Assembly (NCBI GenBank): GCA_944387375.1 | Contig: CALXEQ010000002.1 | Span: forward strand, 62,001-126,000 | Reading direction: 5' to 3' | Source: an uncultured Clostridia bacterium | Lineage (GTDB): Bacteria > Bacillota > Clostridia > TANB77 > CAG-465 | Length of the DNA: 64,000 bases | Shown here: piece after piece, positions 58,178 to 64,000 of the stretch | Position numbering within the stretch: the first letter of the stretch is position 1 | Layout of the letters: every line of letters begins with the position of its first letter | Notes under the pieces: generated by a model | The model's database searches: none | The model's input: only the letters and a program-made list of their open reading frames with translations | What the model was told of the DNA's origin: nothing | Translations under genes and position numbers: made by a program

Positions 58178-58775
58178 TTATTTATTTCTTTTATATATCC
58201 TATATGTTAAATCTTTAGCAATCTTTTTAATAGAAGATACATCAATATTTGATGGTAAATTTTTATCTGAACTTAAAATATGCTTTAACATTTTATCATA
58301 TTCACCTTGATAAATTACATCTATATTTTTAATATCTATAAACTCCTTAGAATCATCTTTTGAAAATTCAATTATTTTTTTATAATTTTCTCTTAAATTA
58401 GTAACAATTTTATTTTCATTTGATGCGGGTTTATAATCCAAAACTATACTTGCAAGCATAGAATGTTTTTCACTATATGATGATCTTCCATTTTGATATT
58501 CTCCATTAAATACAGCTCTAAATTTATAAAAATATTTCAATTTTTGTTCACTTACATAATTTATAGTTACTCTTCTTCTATTTTTAGTTGCTCTACTATA
58601 GCCTATATCTACTGTCTTAAAACTATTAAAATACATATTATTTAATATATAATTTATAGCTTCTGCTTTTTCGGCATCTGTACTACCGACTCCCTATATT
58701 TCCTATTCTTACTAAATCCCATTTGTAATCAACATTAAAATTGATATCCTTTTTTATTTGTTCTTTCCCTTTCAT
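58178..58775 (-). pseudogene. Frameshifted gene of unknown function
   Basis: ATG 58775 has an excellent Shine-Dalgarno (AAGGAGG). The first frame reads 30 codons (MKGKEQIKKDINFNVDYKWD, LVRIGNIGSR) and stops at TAG 58685-58683. The +1 frame is open from just before that stop to 58178. Removing one base from GGG (plus-strand CCC, 58692-58694) restores one reading frame of 198 residues through IGNIGVGSTDAEKAEAINYI. The intact tail includes YSRATKNRRRVTINYVSEQK and ends LTYRIYKRNK. I recognise no family. It lies just downstream of the AAA+/M41 gene but after a terminator. Confidence 0.72.
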
Positions 58776-58891: not shown

Positions 58892-58955
58892 ATAAAAAAA
58901 GGCTTAATAACATACAATAAATTTTAATTCCATGTGTTATTAAGTCTTTTTTATA
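58892..58955 (-). terminator. Long-stem terminator after the AAA+/M41 gene
   Basis: GACTTAATAACA and TGTTATTAAGCC (58900-58946) enclose a loop of about 23 bases and are followed on the minus strand by seven T. Confidence 0.8.
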
Positions 58956-58961
58956 ATAAAC

Positions 58962-61900
58962 TTATTTAAATTTTTCAATAAGTTCTTCTTCGTTTATCTC
59001 TGTCTTTTCCATTAAATAATCTACCACATTAATCATTTTTTCTTTATTTTCTTCAATCAATTTTATAGTTTCTTCAAAACATTCCTGTAATATTTTATTT
59101 TCTTCTATATATACTAATTTTGATACTTCTGACGTCATATTATTAATAACTGCAAAACCTAGATCTGACATACCATAATATCTTATCATATATTCAGCAA
59201 TTCTTGTAGCCTTTTTTAAATCTGAACTATTGCCATTTTCATATGATCCAAAAAACACTTTTTCTGCACACATACCAGCTAATGAAATTTTAATTTTATT
59301 TCTTAACTCTTCTTTAGATTCAGTATATCCCTCAGAAGCTATGCTATATCGAACATATCCTAAAGTTCCTGTTCCTTCTGCATTTATAGTTATTTTCTTT
59401 ATTCCCGCTTTTTTGGTTAAAAGAAGTCTTACTACCGCATGTCCAACCTCATGAGCTGCTGTTCTATATAAATCATCTTTACTTATTTTATCAAGATCGA
59501 TCATGTTTTCTCCATTTAAAAGTAATTTTGTTATTTCTTTTATTGTTGGTATATCTTCTTTTTTTATTATTTCTAAATTATCTGAACAATTCTTTGCGTG
59601 ATTTAAAAAAGTCTCTTGTAAAACTCTATCAACAAATCTACCATTACCAATATTTTCTACATTTTCAAAATATTTCATAATTTTCATAACTTCAGCCTTA
59701 GCTTCATTTTCTAATATTAAGTTTGCTTTTGATACTTTTAATTCAAATATCTCCATCAATTCCTTGTCTGAATAATCTTTAAAATCAAATATATATCCTA
59801 TTCTTGAAGTAATTCCAGGATTTATATCTAAAAATTCACCCATTTCTTTTTTGTATCCAGCAAATATAACTATCAAATCATCTTTATTATCTTCCATTGC
59901 TTTAATTAATGTAGCTATTGCCTCTTTACCATATCCACCTCTATCTGTACTATCAGCTAAAGTATACGCTTCATCAATAAATAACACACCACCCATTGCC
60001 GATTCAATAACATTAGATGTCTTTATAGGAGTTTGTCCAACATATGGTGCAATTAAATCTTTCTTTTCCACTTCTATAACTTTATTTTCATGAATAATAC
60101 CAAGATCAAAAAGCATTTGAGCTATTATTCTTGCCACTGTTGTCTTACCAGTTCCCGGATTTCCTGTAAATATCATATGCATATTCTTAGATGGGATATT
60201 TATATCTGTATTTTTTATTTTATTTAAAAATGTTATATATGTTTTAAATTCTTTTATCTTTTCTTTTAAATCTGTCAATCCAATAAGTTCATTTAACATT
60301 TTATCCGTATCAGCATTATCTGACCTTTTTACATTATTAATTTCTTCTATTGTAGGTAAATCTTCTAAAGTTATTAAAAGCTCATCACAATTTTCTCTTT
60401 GAGAATGTTTTATTATAGTTTCTTGTGATATTTTATCTACAAATCTACCATTTCCAAAATTCTTCTTATTAGAAAAATATTTACAGATTTTTAATAACTG
60501 ATTATTTATTTCTTTATCTATTTTAAATCCCATTTTCTGCATTTTTAAATTATATATTTCTACTAATTCATCTGGTGTATAATCTGGAAAATCAAAAGTG
60601 TAACCTATTCTTGAAGAAATACCTGCATTCATTCTTAAAAATTCTTGCATCTCATTTTTATAACCTGCAAAAATAACTACCAATTCATCTTTATTATCTT
60701 CCATTGCCTTAATTAATGTAGCTATAGCTTCTGAAGAAAAATCATTTTTATTTTCTGATGCTAAAGTATATGCCTCATCTATAAATAAAACTCCTCCCAT
60801 AGCTTTTCTTATAACTTCTGATGTTTTAGGAGCTGTTTGTCCCACATACTCTCCAACTAAATCTTTTCTTTCGACTTCTATTAATTTATTTTCCTTAATT
60901 AATCCTAAATCAAAAAGCATTTTAGACATTATTCTTGCTATAGTTGTTTTACCAGTTCCTGGATTTCCTGTAAATATCATATGCATGTTAGTAGAAGCTA
61001 GTTTAAGACCTTTAGCCTTTGATTTTATTTGAAATAACATATACTTTTCAAAACTTTTAATCTTATCTTTTACACTTTCAAGTCCTATAATATTTTTTAA
61101 AGACTCTTCTACTGTTTCTTTTTTATACATATTTTCTGGAAATTCAACTCTTCCTTTGGTATTACAATACATAGCAATATAACTTGCAAACTCTCTATTT
61201 GAAAACGGTACAAAATTAGAATTTAAAGACACATATTCCACAAACTGTTCTTTATATGTATCTGCTGATTTTTTTAGTTCATCTATCAATTCATTTTTTA
61301 ACAATTTAATAAATAATTTATACATCTCTTCTAAAGATATATCTTCAATTTTAAACCTATAATTTTGATAAATAAATTGTAATTTAGGGTCAATTTCTAA
61401 TAATTCATTTATTTCTTTTTCTGTTCCATTTAATACAATATAATTTTTATACATCATCTTTGTAAGTAAATTTATTGCATGCTTATACTGTTTTATTTCT
61501 ATATCAGCAGATTTATTTTTACTTTGCAGAGTACTTTTATAATCTTGTACAAACTCTTTTATATTAGATAAAAAATAAACTCGATTTTCTTTTAATTCCG
61601 TATAATTTATTGCACCTTGAGTATAGTATTTTATCCCATTTATATCTGTTTCTTCAGATTTAACATTCTCCCTATACGCATTCATTGCAGCAAAATTATG
61701 AAGAGAAATCCTATAAAACGCCCTATTTCCAGCAATCTTATTTACTTTACTTAAAGTATCTATAATCTTATTTTCTATTTTTTCTTTTACTACAATATCT
61801 TCTCCTTCTATAGTGCAATGTAAATTTTGTTGATTAGGATTTAATATTATATCTATTAATTTTTCAATATTAGGAATTTTATAATCATCAAATTCTTGAG

Positions 61901-62804
61901 TTAATACTGATATCCTCTCTTTTCTTTCTTTTTCGTTTTTTTCTTTTAATTCTTGATTTTTTAATTCAATATCTAATTTATTTTCATTATAATATTTTCT
62001 ATCCTCATATATTATATCTTCTCTACCAATTTTTCTTAAATAATAAATATATCCTGCTATTTCTATAGGACACATTTCTAAACCACATTTATCTGTTTGA
62101 CAAGGATTAAAAGTTAAAGTTGTAGCTCTATTAATACATAATTTTTTACCATTATCTTTTTCTTTATTTTGCTCTTCAATCGTTTCAGTAGTAAGTATTT
62201 TAAAATCTTCACAGTTATATTTAGTATCAATAACTACTCTATTTTTATCTGATAATCTATTTCTAACATAAATACAATTTTTATCCACTAATTTTTTTGC
62301 TAAATTATAATACTTTTTAGAAACATTTTTTAATCCGTTTTCTACTTTAAGATTAAATTCAAAATAATCATTAACTTCATTTTTTTGTCTAAATTCATTT
62401 CTATCTTTAAATGCTGAATCTAACATATCATTATCATTTAAATATCTTATATATGCTGCAACCAATTTGGGACATTTTTCATATTTACAATTTTCACACA
62501 TAAAGTCCCTATTAATTCTAGTTACCATTTTTCTTCTATTAGATGTAATAATATCTTTTAAATCACCATTTTTAAATTTTTCATATAGTTCTTTAGTTGT
62601 TGTTTTATAATCACATAATGAATTTATATTTGACTCTATGATTATATCTTTTAATTCTTCTTGTTTTTCATCTTTATACTCAGGAATTATTTTTAGCTTT
62701 CCCTCTTTAATTATTAGTAAAGCTAAATTAATTGTATCATCTGAGAAATACCTTAATCCTTCTTTCCTATCCCACTTAAATTTATACTTTTTATCTTCAC
62801 TCAT
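58962..62804 (-). CDS. Tandem SpoVK/CbbX-type AAA+ protein fused to an FtsH-like M41 peptidase
   Basis: The 1280-residue soluble protein starts with a region (1 to about 290) holding two copies of a Cys motif: CENCKYEKCPKLVAAYIRYL near 98 and CQTDKCGLEMCPIEIAGYIYYL near 240, quoted here to CPIEIAGY. A helical region follows. AAA+ module 1 (about 575-800) has GNPGTGKTTIARIM and GVLFIDEAYTLAS. Module 2 (about 840-1080) repeats GNPGTGKTTVARII and GVLFIDEAYTLAD. The C-terminus has AAHEVGHAVVRLL, an HExxH zinc site, and the rest of an M41 domain (LAGMCAEKVFFGSYENGNSS). FtsH has one AAA+ domain and membrane anchors; this has two CbbX-like modules and none. GGGAGG precedes the ATG. Confidence 0.9.
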   Translation of the reverse strand: MSEDKKYKFKWDRKEGLRYFSDDTINLALLIIKEGKLKIIPEYKDEKQEELKDIIIESNINSLCDYKTTTKELYEKFKNGDLKDIITSNRRKMVTRINRDFMCENCKYEKCPKLVAAYIRYLNDNDMLDSAFKDRNEFRQKNEVNDYFEFNLKVENGLKNVSKKYYNLAKKLVDKNCIYVRNRLSDKNRVVIDTKYNCEDFKILTTETIEEQNKEKDNGKKLCINRATTLTFNPCQTDKCGLEMCPIEIAGYIYYLRKIGREDIIYEDRKYYNENKLDIELKNQELKEKNEKERKERISVLTQEFDDYKIPNIEKLIDIILNPNQQNLHCTIEGEDIVVKEKIENKIIDTLSKVNKIAGNRAFYRISLHNFAAMNAYRENVKSEETDINGIKYYTQGAINYTELKENRVYFLSNIKEFVQDYKSTLQSKNKSADIEIKQYKHAINLLTKMMYKNYIVLNGTEKEINELLEIDPKLQFIYQNYRFKIEDISLEEMYKLFIKLLKNELIDELKKSADTYKEQFVEYVSLNSNFVPFSNREFASYIAMYCNTKGRVEFPENMYKKETVEESLKNIIGLESVKDKIKSFEKYMLFQIKSKAKGLKLASTNMHMIFTGNPGTGKTTIARIMSKMLFDLGLIKENKLIEVERKDLVGEYVGQTAPKTSEVIRKAMGGVLFIDEAYTLASENKNDFSSEAIATLIKAMEDNKDELVVIFAGYKNEMQEFLRMNAGISSRIGYTFDFPDYTPDELVEIYNLKMQKMGFKIDKEINNQLLKICKYFSNKKNFGNGRFVDKISQETIIKHSQRENCDELLITLEDLPTIEEINNVKRSDNADTDKMLNELIGLTDLKEKIKEFKTYITFLNKIKNTDINIPSKNMHMIFTGNPGTGKTTVARIIAQMLFDLGIIHENKVIEVEKKDLIAPYVGQTPIKTSNVIESAMGGVLFIDEAYTLADSTDRGGYGKEAIATLIKAMEDNKDDLIVIFAGYKKEMGEFLDINPGITSRIGYIFDFKDYSDKELMEIFELKVSKANLILENEAKAEVMKIMKYFENVENIGNGRFVDRVLQETFLNHAKNCSDNLEIIKKEDIPTIKEITKLLLNGENMIDLDKISKDDLYRTAAHEVGHAVVRLLLTKKAGIKKITINAEGTGTLGYVRYSIASEGYTESKEELRNKIKISLAGMCAEKVFFGSYENGNSSDLKKATRIAEYMIRYYGMSDLGFAVINNMTSEVSKLVYIEENKILQECFEETIKLIEENKEKMINVVDYLMEKTEINEEELIEKFK

Positions 62805-63139
62805 TTTTTCCTCCCAAATGAATTTTATATAAAAGTACTTAATTTATATACCTCTCATAGTTTTACATCTTTTTAAGTGTCAATTTCTTCTTTATTACTG
62901 CATTTTTATTCATAAAAACTCATTTGTATAAATTATATCATATTATCTAATAATAATATACTTTTCTACTTATTTTATATAGAATATAATTTTTTTCTTT
63001 TATTTAAGGCTAATTAAAAAAACATTTACTTAAAAAGTAAATGTTTTTTGTCTAATAATATATAATACAATTTTAATTATCAATTTTAAAAGATAACCAT
63101 TAAGAAAAATCTATTTAAAAACACTTTAGAAATTTTTAA
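62805..63139. other. AT-rich gap between the AAA+/M41 and radical SAM genes
   Basis: This 335-base gap holds a terminator (63016-63049) for the radical SAM gene. On the minus strand a TATAAT (about 62941-62936) probably belongs to the AAA+/M41 promoter; its -35 is unclear. I found no credible small precursor-peptide gene in it. Confidence 0.5.
63016..63050 (-). terminator. Terminator after the radical SAM gene
   Basis: AAAAAACATTTACTT and AAGTAAATGTTTTTT (63017-63049) with an AAA loop; the pairing runs on into A/T-rich tails on both sides. Confidence 0.82.
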
Positions 63140-64000
63140 CTATTTGTTTTTATTCATATATTCAATCATTGCATTTATATACATTTTTTGAATATTACAT
63201 AATAGTTTATAGTCATTTTCTGCATAATATATTGCTCCTAAACATAGTCCTTGACAAATATTGTTATACAGACAATCTTTACATACGGTATCTCTTTTCT
63301 TTATTGCAGTTTCAAGTTGAGCTTTTTTTGCCCCCTTTACCATATGGCAAGGACTTCTTTTACCATCAACATCATATGCAAATCTACATATTCCTGCTTC
63401 ACAATTGTGCACTAGAGAATTGTTAAATGTCAATATATCATAATAATTAGATAATGGTACCATTCTTATAATCTTACCACTTTTTATATATTCAAAAAAT
63501 ATTTTAACTAACTCTGTTATTTGCTCCTGTAATTTTTCTAAGTACTCTTTATTATTTAAACTTAATTTTTCTCTTGATATATTAGGCTCAAAATGAATTT
63601 TTTTAAAGCCCAAATTAACTAAATACTTAAAAGTTTCAACTAATTCTAAACTATAAGGAGTAAAAGTAGCTCTTGCTGTAATTATTTTATTATCAACTTT
63701 TTCTAATAATTTCTTTATATTATTTTCTATAGAATAATAATGTTGCTTTCCTTTTGAATCTATAATTGGTCTTTGCTTATTTTGTACTTCATAGTTTCCA
63801 TCTATACTTATTTGAACAGAGTCAAAATTATTTTTACTTATAAAATCAATAATTTTGTCATTTAGTTTTAAAGCATTTGTTGAAATTGAAAATGTAAAAT
63901 TATAGTCTTTTAAACTATTACAATATTCTACAACCTCATAAATTAATTTCTCATTTAGTAATGGTTCTCCCCCAAAAAAACATATTTTTAATTTTTTGGT
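63140..64000 (-). CDS. Radical SAM/SPASM enzyme, C-terminal part (N-terminus outside window)
   Basis: The frame is open from the window edge for 286 residues. It begins in the radical SAM barrel with KICFFGGEPLLNEKLIYEVV, then TFSISTNALKLND and VQISIDGNYE. The CxxxCxxC cluster loop must lie outside. The C-terminal SPASM-like domain has eight Cys: NCEAGICRFAYDVDGKRSPC, then DTVCKDCLYNNICQGLCLG and LLCNI. SPASM enzymes carry extra iron-sulfur centres and modify peptides or proteins (RiPP maturases, sulfatase maturases). It is on the same strand as the AAA+/M41 gene and separated by a terminator. Confidence 0.88.
   Translation of the reverse strand, partial: TKKLKICFFGGEPLLNEKLIYEVVEYCNSLKDYNFTFSISTNALKLNDKIIDFISKNNFDSVQISIDGNYEVQNKQRPIIDSKGKQHYYSIENNIKKLLEKVDNKIITARATFTPYSLELVETFKYLVNLGFKKIHFEPNISREKLSLNNKEYLEKLQEQITELVKIFFEYIKSGKIIRMVPLSNYYDILTFNNSLVHNCEAGICRFAYDVDGKRSPCHMVKGAKKAQLETAIKKRDTVCKDCLYNNICQGLCLGAIYYAENDYKLLCNIQKMYINAMIEYMNKNK

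Follow-up and report, generated by a model that had tools for sequence, protein, structure and literature searches.

The window, i.e. the whole stretch of 64,000 nucleotides that was analysed, carries on its minus strand an open reading frame (58962-62804) that starts with ATG, has a GGAGG-type ribosome site just 5' of it and encodes a chain of 1280 residues. The features of this gene and of its flanks are the following:

58962..62804, minus strand: whole gene, encoding a Cys4-Cys4-degenerate AAA-AAA-AAA-M41 protein of 1280 aa (Pfam, NCBIfam, orthologue in genome G014)
62385..62777, minus strand: Cys4 module 1 (residues ~10-140; C64, C103, C106, C111), putative zinc site (invariant cysteines)
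61980..62357, minus strand: Cys4 module 2 (residues ~150-275; C198, C235, C240, C245), putative zinc site (invariant cysteines)
61134..61892, minus strand: degenerate CbbX-type AAA+ module (residues ~305-557; hhalign and structure model)
60330..61133, minus strand: active CbbX-type AAA+ module 1 (residues 558-825; intact motifs, superposition on CbbX 3syl)
59535..60329, minus strand: active CbbX-type AAA+ module 2 (residues 826-1090), adjoining M41 (intact motifs, tree)
58977..59507, minus strand: Peptidase_M41 domain (residues 1100-1276; Pfam, CbbX-M41 clade with support 100/98)
59439..59453, minus strand: HEVGH zinc/catalytic motif (residues 1118-1122; alignment with FtsH)
63014..63045, minus strand: A+T-rich hairpin and T-run separating the window gene from the radical SAM gene upstream of it, possible terminator (by eye)
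58894..58944, minus strand: 10-bp inverted repeat with a 22-base loop and a T-run past the stop codon, possible terminator (by eye)

The first-pass annotation had described two nearly alike AAA+ modules followed by HEVGH and the rest of an M41 domain, all in one chain of 1280 residues and with no membrane anchor. Pfam, NCBIfam and the motif positions agree with this order. In detail, Pfam detected two AAA domains (E 4.6e-36) together with two AAA_lid_6 domains, and the NCBIfam model of SpoVK matched two stretches above its cut-off (E 5e-146). The Peptidase_M41 assignment, on which the fusion stands or falls, covers residues 1108-1275 and positions 4-188 of the 191 in the profile (E 7.5e-27; 94.9 bits, the cut-off being 29.9). 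The equivalog of full-length FtsH, TIGR01241, reached 110.6 bits against a cut-off of 600, so that the chain does not qualify as an FtsH. Among solved structures, the motors are closest by sequence to CbbX and the C-terminal part to FtsH-type proteases. A Kyte-Doolittle scan of the chain found no hydrophobic anchor, the highest mean over 19 residues being 1.1 versus 2.28 in a related FtsH.

The M41 domain was then aligned with FtsH. Its third zinc ligand is D1195, 77 residues past H1118, and the motifs HE.GH and SSDL..AT are invariant across the fusion family; HE.GH and the third-ligand Asp are unchanged in 13 of the 13 aligned fused sequences. Profile, HExxH and third Asp ligand together mark the window protein as a member of peptidase family M41.

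Altogether the chain has three AAA+ modules, two active and one degenerate. The term ‘double’ used in the first-pass annotation therefore holds for the active motors, and a third, dead AAA+ module and the N-terminal Cys4 region had been overlooked. The dead module shows neither Walker A nor Walker B. It is related to the active modules (hhalign probability 92%, E 7e-7), its structure model is closest to CbbX 3syk (Z 11.5, 240 residues, rmsd 4.1), and its dN/dS of 0.10 against the G014 orthologue indicates purifying selection. In the case of the Cys4 modules, the first is homologous to the second (hhalign E 3.4e-15), meaning that a duplicated module makes up the first 275 residues. The cysteines of both copies are invariant in 12 relatives, and no convincing match to a known domain was found for them in Pfam.

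The Walker A motifs of the active modules start at residues 613 and 881, which gives a spacing of 268. Module 1 has Walker A GNPGTGKT, Walker B LFIDEA, the pore loop YVG, the GY of sensor-1, the second arginine finger and the GNGR of sensor-2, and module 2 has this full set likewise intact. Across all active modules recovered, the ATPase motifs are intact apart from single misses in two sequences, one of which is cut by a contig end. The SpoVK/CbbX/EccA clade has been described by three signature positions, among them the Tyr of the sensor-1 GY (PMC10659427). All three were found in the motors of the fusion family. Firstly, sensor-1 reads IFAGY in every active module. Secondly, the arginine-finger region reads N[PAS]GI.SR in the fused modules and NPGLRSR in the viral-contig protein L085, the upstream Asn being kept. 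Thirdly, the sensor-2 Arg, usually lost in FtsH, occurs as GNGR in nearly all active modules and as GNAR in one. Most fused modules have A, S or T in place of the first arginine finger but retain the second Arg; this first position is variable in non-fused members too. In the motor tree, with three FtsH rows as outgroup, the fusion-family motors group with SpoVK/CbbX-like proteins and away from FtsH (SH-aLRT 100). As judged from these sequence characters, the motors are of the SpoVK/CbbX group and not FtsH-type AAA modules.

To describe the arrangement of the domains, an AF2 model covering residues 555-1280 (AAA1-AAA2-M41; pLDDT 82, pTM 0.53) was compared to known structures. Module 1 superposed on CbbX 3syl with a Z of 26.8, with ~38% identity to CbbX across the module, and module 2 plus M41 superposed on the FtsH chains 7zbh_I (Z 24.0, 361 residues, rmsd 4.7) and 2ce7_E (Z 23.6). 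The last Walker A and HExGH are 237 residues apart, versus 222 in FtsH. Both active modules align in order with D1-D2 of Cdc48/p97, at an rmsd near 10 and with their relative placement not fixed. The initial identification as a soluble SpoVK/CbbX-M41 fusion is thus backed by profile matches and trees as well as by signature residues and the predicted structure.

The M41 chambers whose structure is known are hexameric, and every chain contributes a single M41. Since each chain also has one M41 here, the simplest geometry would be six chains, with each type of AAA+ module in its own stacked ring. Alternatively, the tandem modules could be neighbours within a single mixed ring, comparable to dynein, and both the chains and the M41 domains of the assembly would then number fewer than six. 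Covalently linked tandem modules, the dead one included, do resemble concatenated rings, and the poor D1-D2-like placement in the superposition could be read in the same sense. However, with the dead module counted, the chains of relatives contain 2, 3 or 4 AAA+ modules, and these numbers cannot all fill one six-membered ring, as four does not divide six. The hexameric nature of known M41 chambers and the Walker A spacing, which is close to that of stacked two-ring AAA proteins, also speak for stacking, and we regard a mixed ring as unlikely.

Because the ATPase motifs are intact, each module has an aromatic pore loop, an M41 domain retaining its full set of zinc ligands stands behind the last motor and the chain is soluble, an ATP-driven unfoldase-protease is suggested. 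We consider it probable that the window protein is a zinc protease, soluble and ATP-dependent, whose CbbX-type rings unfold specific substrates and pass them into a chamber formed by M41. We infer proteolysis, a hexamer, stacking, recruitment of substrates by the N-terminus and zinc in the Cys4 modules, possibly arranged as follows. The duplicated Cys4 modules, which probably bind zinc, would recruit a narrow substrate set or an adaptor. The degenerate AAA+ module may act as a non-hydrolysing collar or scaffold. The two CbbX-type AAA+ rings would hydrolyse ATP and draw the chain through a pore lined with conserved Y-V-G loops, and the M41 domains, hexameric as in FtsH, would enclose a zinc-protease chamber in which the incoming chain is cut. 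Several observations count against this protease: the Cdc48-like superposition of the two modules is poor (rmsd near 10), no conserved neighbour hints at a substrate, the motor can persist without M41 (L042, L047), and most fused modules lack the first arginine finger.

The protein could also be a remodelling chaperone of the CbbX/SpoVK/EccA type whose M41 makes only limited activating cuts, i.e. a processing enzyme that does not degrade its target. Characterised members of the clade each act on a single dedicated target (PMC10659427), and the N-terminal modules are of a substrate-recruiting type. Additionally, the family is rare and patchy, unlike general quality-control proteases: its N-terminal half was matched in 5 of the 291 sampled genomes of the class, and the fusion occurs in 4 of the 28 genomes of the genus set. 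Nevertheless, the last motor is followed immediately by M41, an order also seen in FtsH, on which the predicted unit can be superposed; the pore loops are intact as well, and a mere processing role is in our opinion quite improbable.

The fusion is present in 14 bacterial genomes of Clostridia (genomes or loci G000, G014, G003, G016, G039, G051, G054, G056, G180, G245, G302, L038, L044 and L049) and on one viral contig. The closest copy, in G014 (contig label uncultured Clostridia BRZ_CM__bin36), is 93% identical, also 1280 aa long and has its domains in equal order; dN/dS between the two genes is 0.107 overall and 0.04-0.17 per domain, indicating purifying selection. The possibility had been raised that other genomes keep two separate genes instead. 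As G014 and 12 further genomes keep the fusion, an assembly artefact is excluded for the window gene. For the family, an artefact of assembly or annotation, or a decaying gene, has a practically negligible chance of being correct: the genomes are mostly metagenome-assembled, the G051 gene is a split frame and a second L038 copy is frameshifted, but independent assemblies in several families and the viral contig keep the fusion, and the low dN/dS and the identical length in G014 oppose decay.

The viral-contig protein (L085, on a 467-kb IMG/VR contig) has 1089 aa and 43% identity over motor and M41. Terminase_6N was not found on this contig, so that its viral status rests on IMG/VR and on gene style. 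When the phylum was searched with a motor-M41 profile, the motor part alone matched among the matches listed outside G000. Among the matches listed from plasmids and cultured phages there were only tandem CbbX proteins without M41, two plasmid records covering at least 80% of the query.

Regarding the history of the family, a search for the three-part architecture across Clostridia and a phylogeny of the M41 domain had both been proposed beforehand. The search recovered the fusions of the 14 genomes, with layout kept and motor number variable, and ‘double’ does not describe the family as a whole. One active module precedes M41 in L041, L043, L045, G180, G245 and L085; two do so in the window, G014, L044, L048, L049 and G302; three in L038, L039 and L040. 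Apart from the viral-contig protein L085, these relatives come from other gut Clostridia. Two relatives, L042 and L047, have no M41 domain. In the phylogeny, the CbbX-fused M41 domains are monophyletic (100/98) and apart from the local FtsH. The last modules of multi-motor proteins, window module 2 included, form one clade (98/93), hence the split between first and last modules is old. The single modules of L041, L043 and L045 are first-module-like before Walker A and last-module-like after sensor-1, and the M41 of L041 is sister to that of the two-motor L044 (98/92). L041 is most simply read as having probably lost a motor by in-frame recombination, and the simplest history of the family would be a single ancient fusion with later losses, as in L042 and L047. 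It can be added that tandem copies occur at L038:7380-17776: first a complete CbbX-M41 gene with three motors, then an N-terminal domain standing alone, and finally another copy, which has two motors and is interrupted by a frameshift.

The genomic surroundings were also compared. The neighbour genes differ in each lineage, and no conserved neighbour that could hint at a substrate emerged across the lineages compared. Two adjacent radical SAM genes lie 5' of the window gene (63140-64000 and beyond; L022:7140-9437) and are conserved in G014, one of them being related to PapB-type peptide maturases. A precursor peptide for this pair was not recognised, and no Cys-rich precursor was evident. A RiPP system together with the pair is unsupported: the pair stands beside the gene only in G000 and G014, ~335 bases away, with a hairpin and T-run in between. 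This hairpin (63014..63045) is nearly identical in G014 and under the threshold of the terminator scan; in the case of the repeat at 58894..58944, the loop is too long for that scan. A defence system was rejected too, as PADLOC matches are weak and at the AAA level and the neighbourhoods are ordinary and lineage-specific. Neither does the protein look like a stand-in for missing proteases. Of 18 genomes tested, some with and some without the fusion, 17 encode ClpP; almost every genome of either group lacks canonical Lon, and G000 still has an FtsH of its own. The ORF after the window gene (58178-58775) has no family match, and its start seems truncated or frameshifted versus a 176-aa copy in G014. 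In G014, a CRISPR-like array (L023:78-715; 10 copies of a 36-base repeat at a 66-base spacing) lies near a contig end, ~5 kb from the fusion gene.

Compared to FtsH, m-AAA and i-AAA, the window protein similarly has an AAA+ module followed at once by M41, complete with HExxH and the third Asp ligand, and its predicted AAA-M41 unit superposes on FtsH protomers. Unlike them it is anchorless, has SpoVK/CbbX-type motors with AAA_lid_6 and belongs to a family with a dead motor besides one to three active ones and with a separate M41 clade. CbbX is the red-type Rubisco activase. With the CbbX/SpoVK/EccA clade the window motors share the GY of sensor-1, the upstream Asn and the sensor-2 Arg, whereas tandem modules and an M41 peptidase set the fusion family apart. 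In common with Cdc48/p97 and other two-ring AAA proteins there are two active classical AAA modules in tandem at similar spacing; in contrast to Cdc48/p97, the motors fall outside the Cdc48 group by sequence and the protease is covalently attached. Tandem CbbX-like ATPases, i.e. paralogues of the same order (G039:C28, G036:C23) and Ligilactobacillus plasmid proteins, also link two or three CbbX-type modules but have no protease domain, and the G039/G036-type paralogues carry a Cys-rich zinc-ribbon-like N-terminus in place of that of the fusion family. Paralogues of ~1300 aa with such an N-terminus, three CbbX-type modules and no M41 were seen at L032:7546-11442, L033:6260-10168, L034:7340-11236 and L031:5352-9239.

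Other M41 fusions were encountered as well. A second kind, common in the order, consists of a Clp-like N-terminal region, a ClpA/ClpB D1-type AAA and then M41 in ~640-770 aa (L042:3391-5391 in G009; L193, L195-L203), matched by both ClpA and FtsH profiles; the G009 copy lies 256 bases downstream of an M41-less CbbX-family member. Short AAA-M41 proteins of 466-488 aa with no obvious membrane anchor (L206-L209, family f5 genomes) form their own M41 clade. On IMG/VR contigs (L100:1291-3459 and L101), a 722-aa protein joins a ClpB D2-small-type AAA part to M41.

In their comparative study, Delerue et al., 2023 found no evidence of peptidase associations in the SpoVK/CbbX/EccA clade and inferred for it, unlike for most classical AAA+ proteins, assembly rather than degradation (PMC10659427). 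This lack of a peptidase partner is an empirical generalisation on the clade rather than a defining trait, and it does not hold here, where M41 is in one chain with the motors. The CbbX-M41 family is a direct counterexample to it. No earlier description of a CbbX-M41 fusion was found in the open-access literature searched, subscription papers lying outside its scope. From its domains, the family is predicted to be one of AAA+ proteases, in which the pairing of motor and protease is unusual and the number of motors varies.

More tentatively, and with somewhat less than even confidence, we propose that the SpoVK/CbbX clade holds true soluble unfoldase-proteases, in which two to four stacked AAA+ rings, one of them dead, stand over an M41 chamber. 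Species would differ in how many active rings they have, whole modules having been gained or lost, and the machine would also have entered a giant phage. If true, such AAA+ proteases would have an architecture whose motor number is tunable. The family also offers a natural experiment, in which one motor type occurs with and without protease and in one, two or three active copies. It makes it possible to test if whole chains are threaded through the pore by CbbX-type motors, how many AAA+ rings can serve an M41 chamber, and if the M41 protease module is portable, which the separate Clp-type fusions of the same order likewise suggest.
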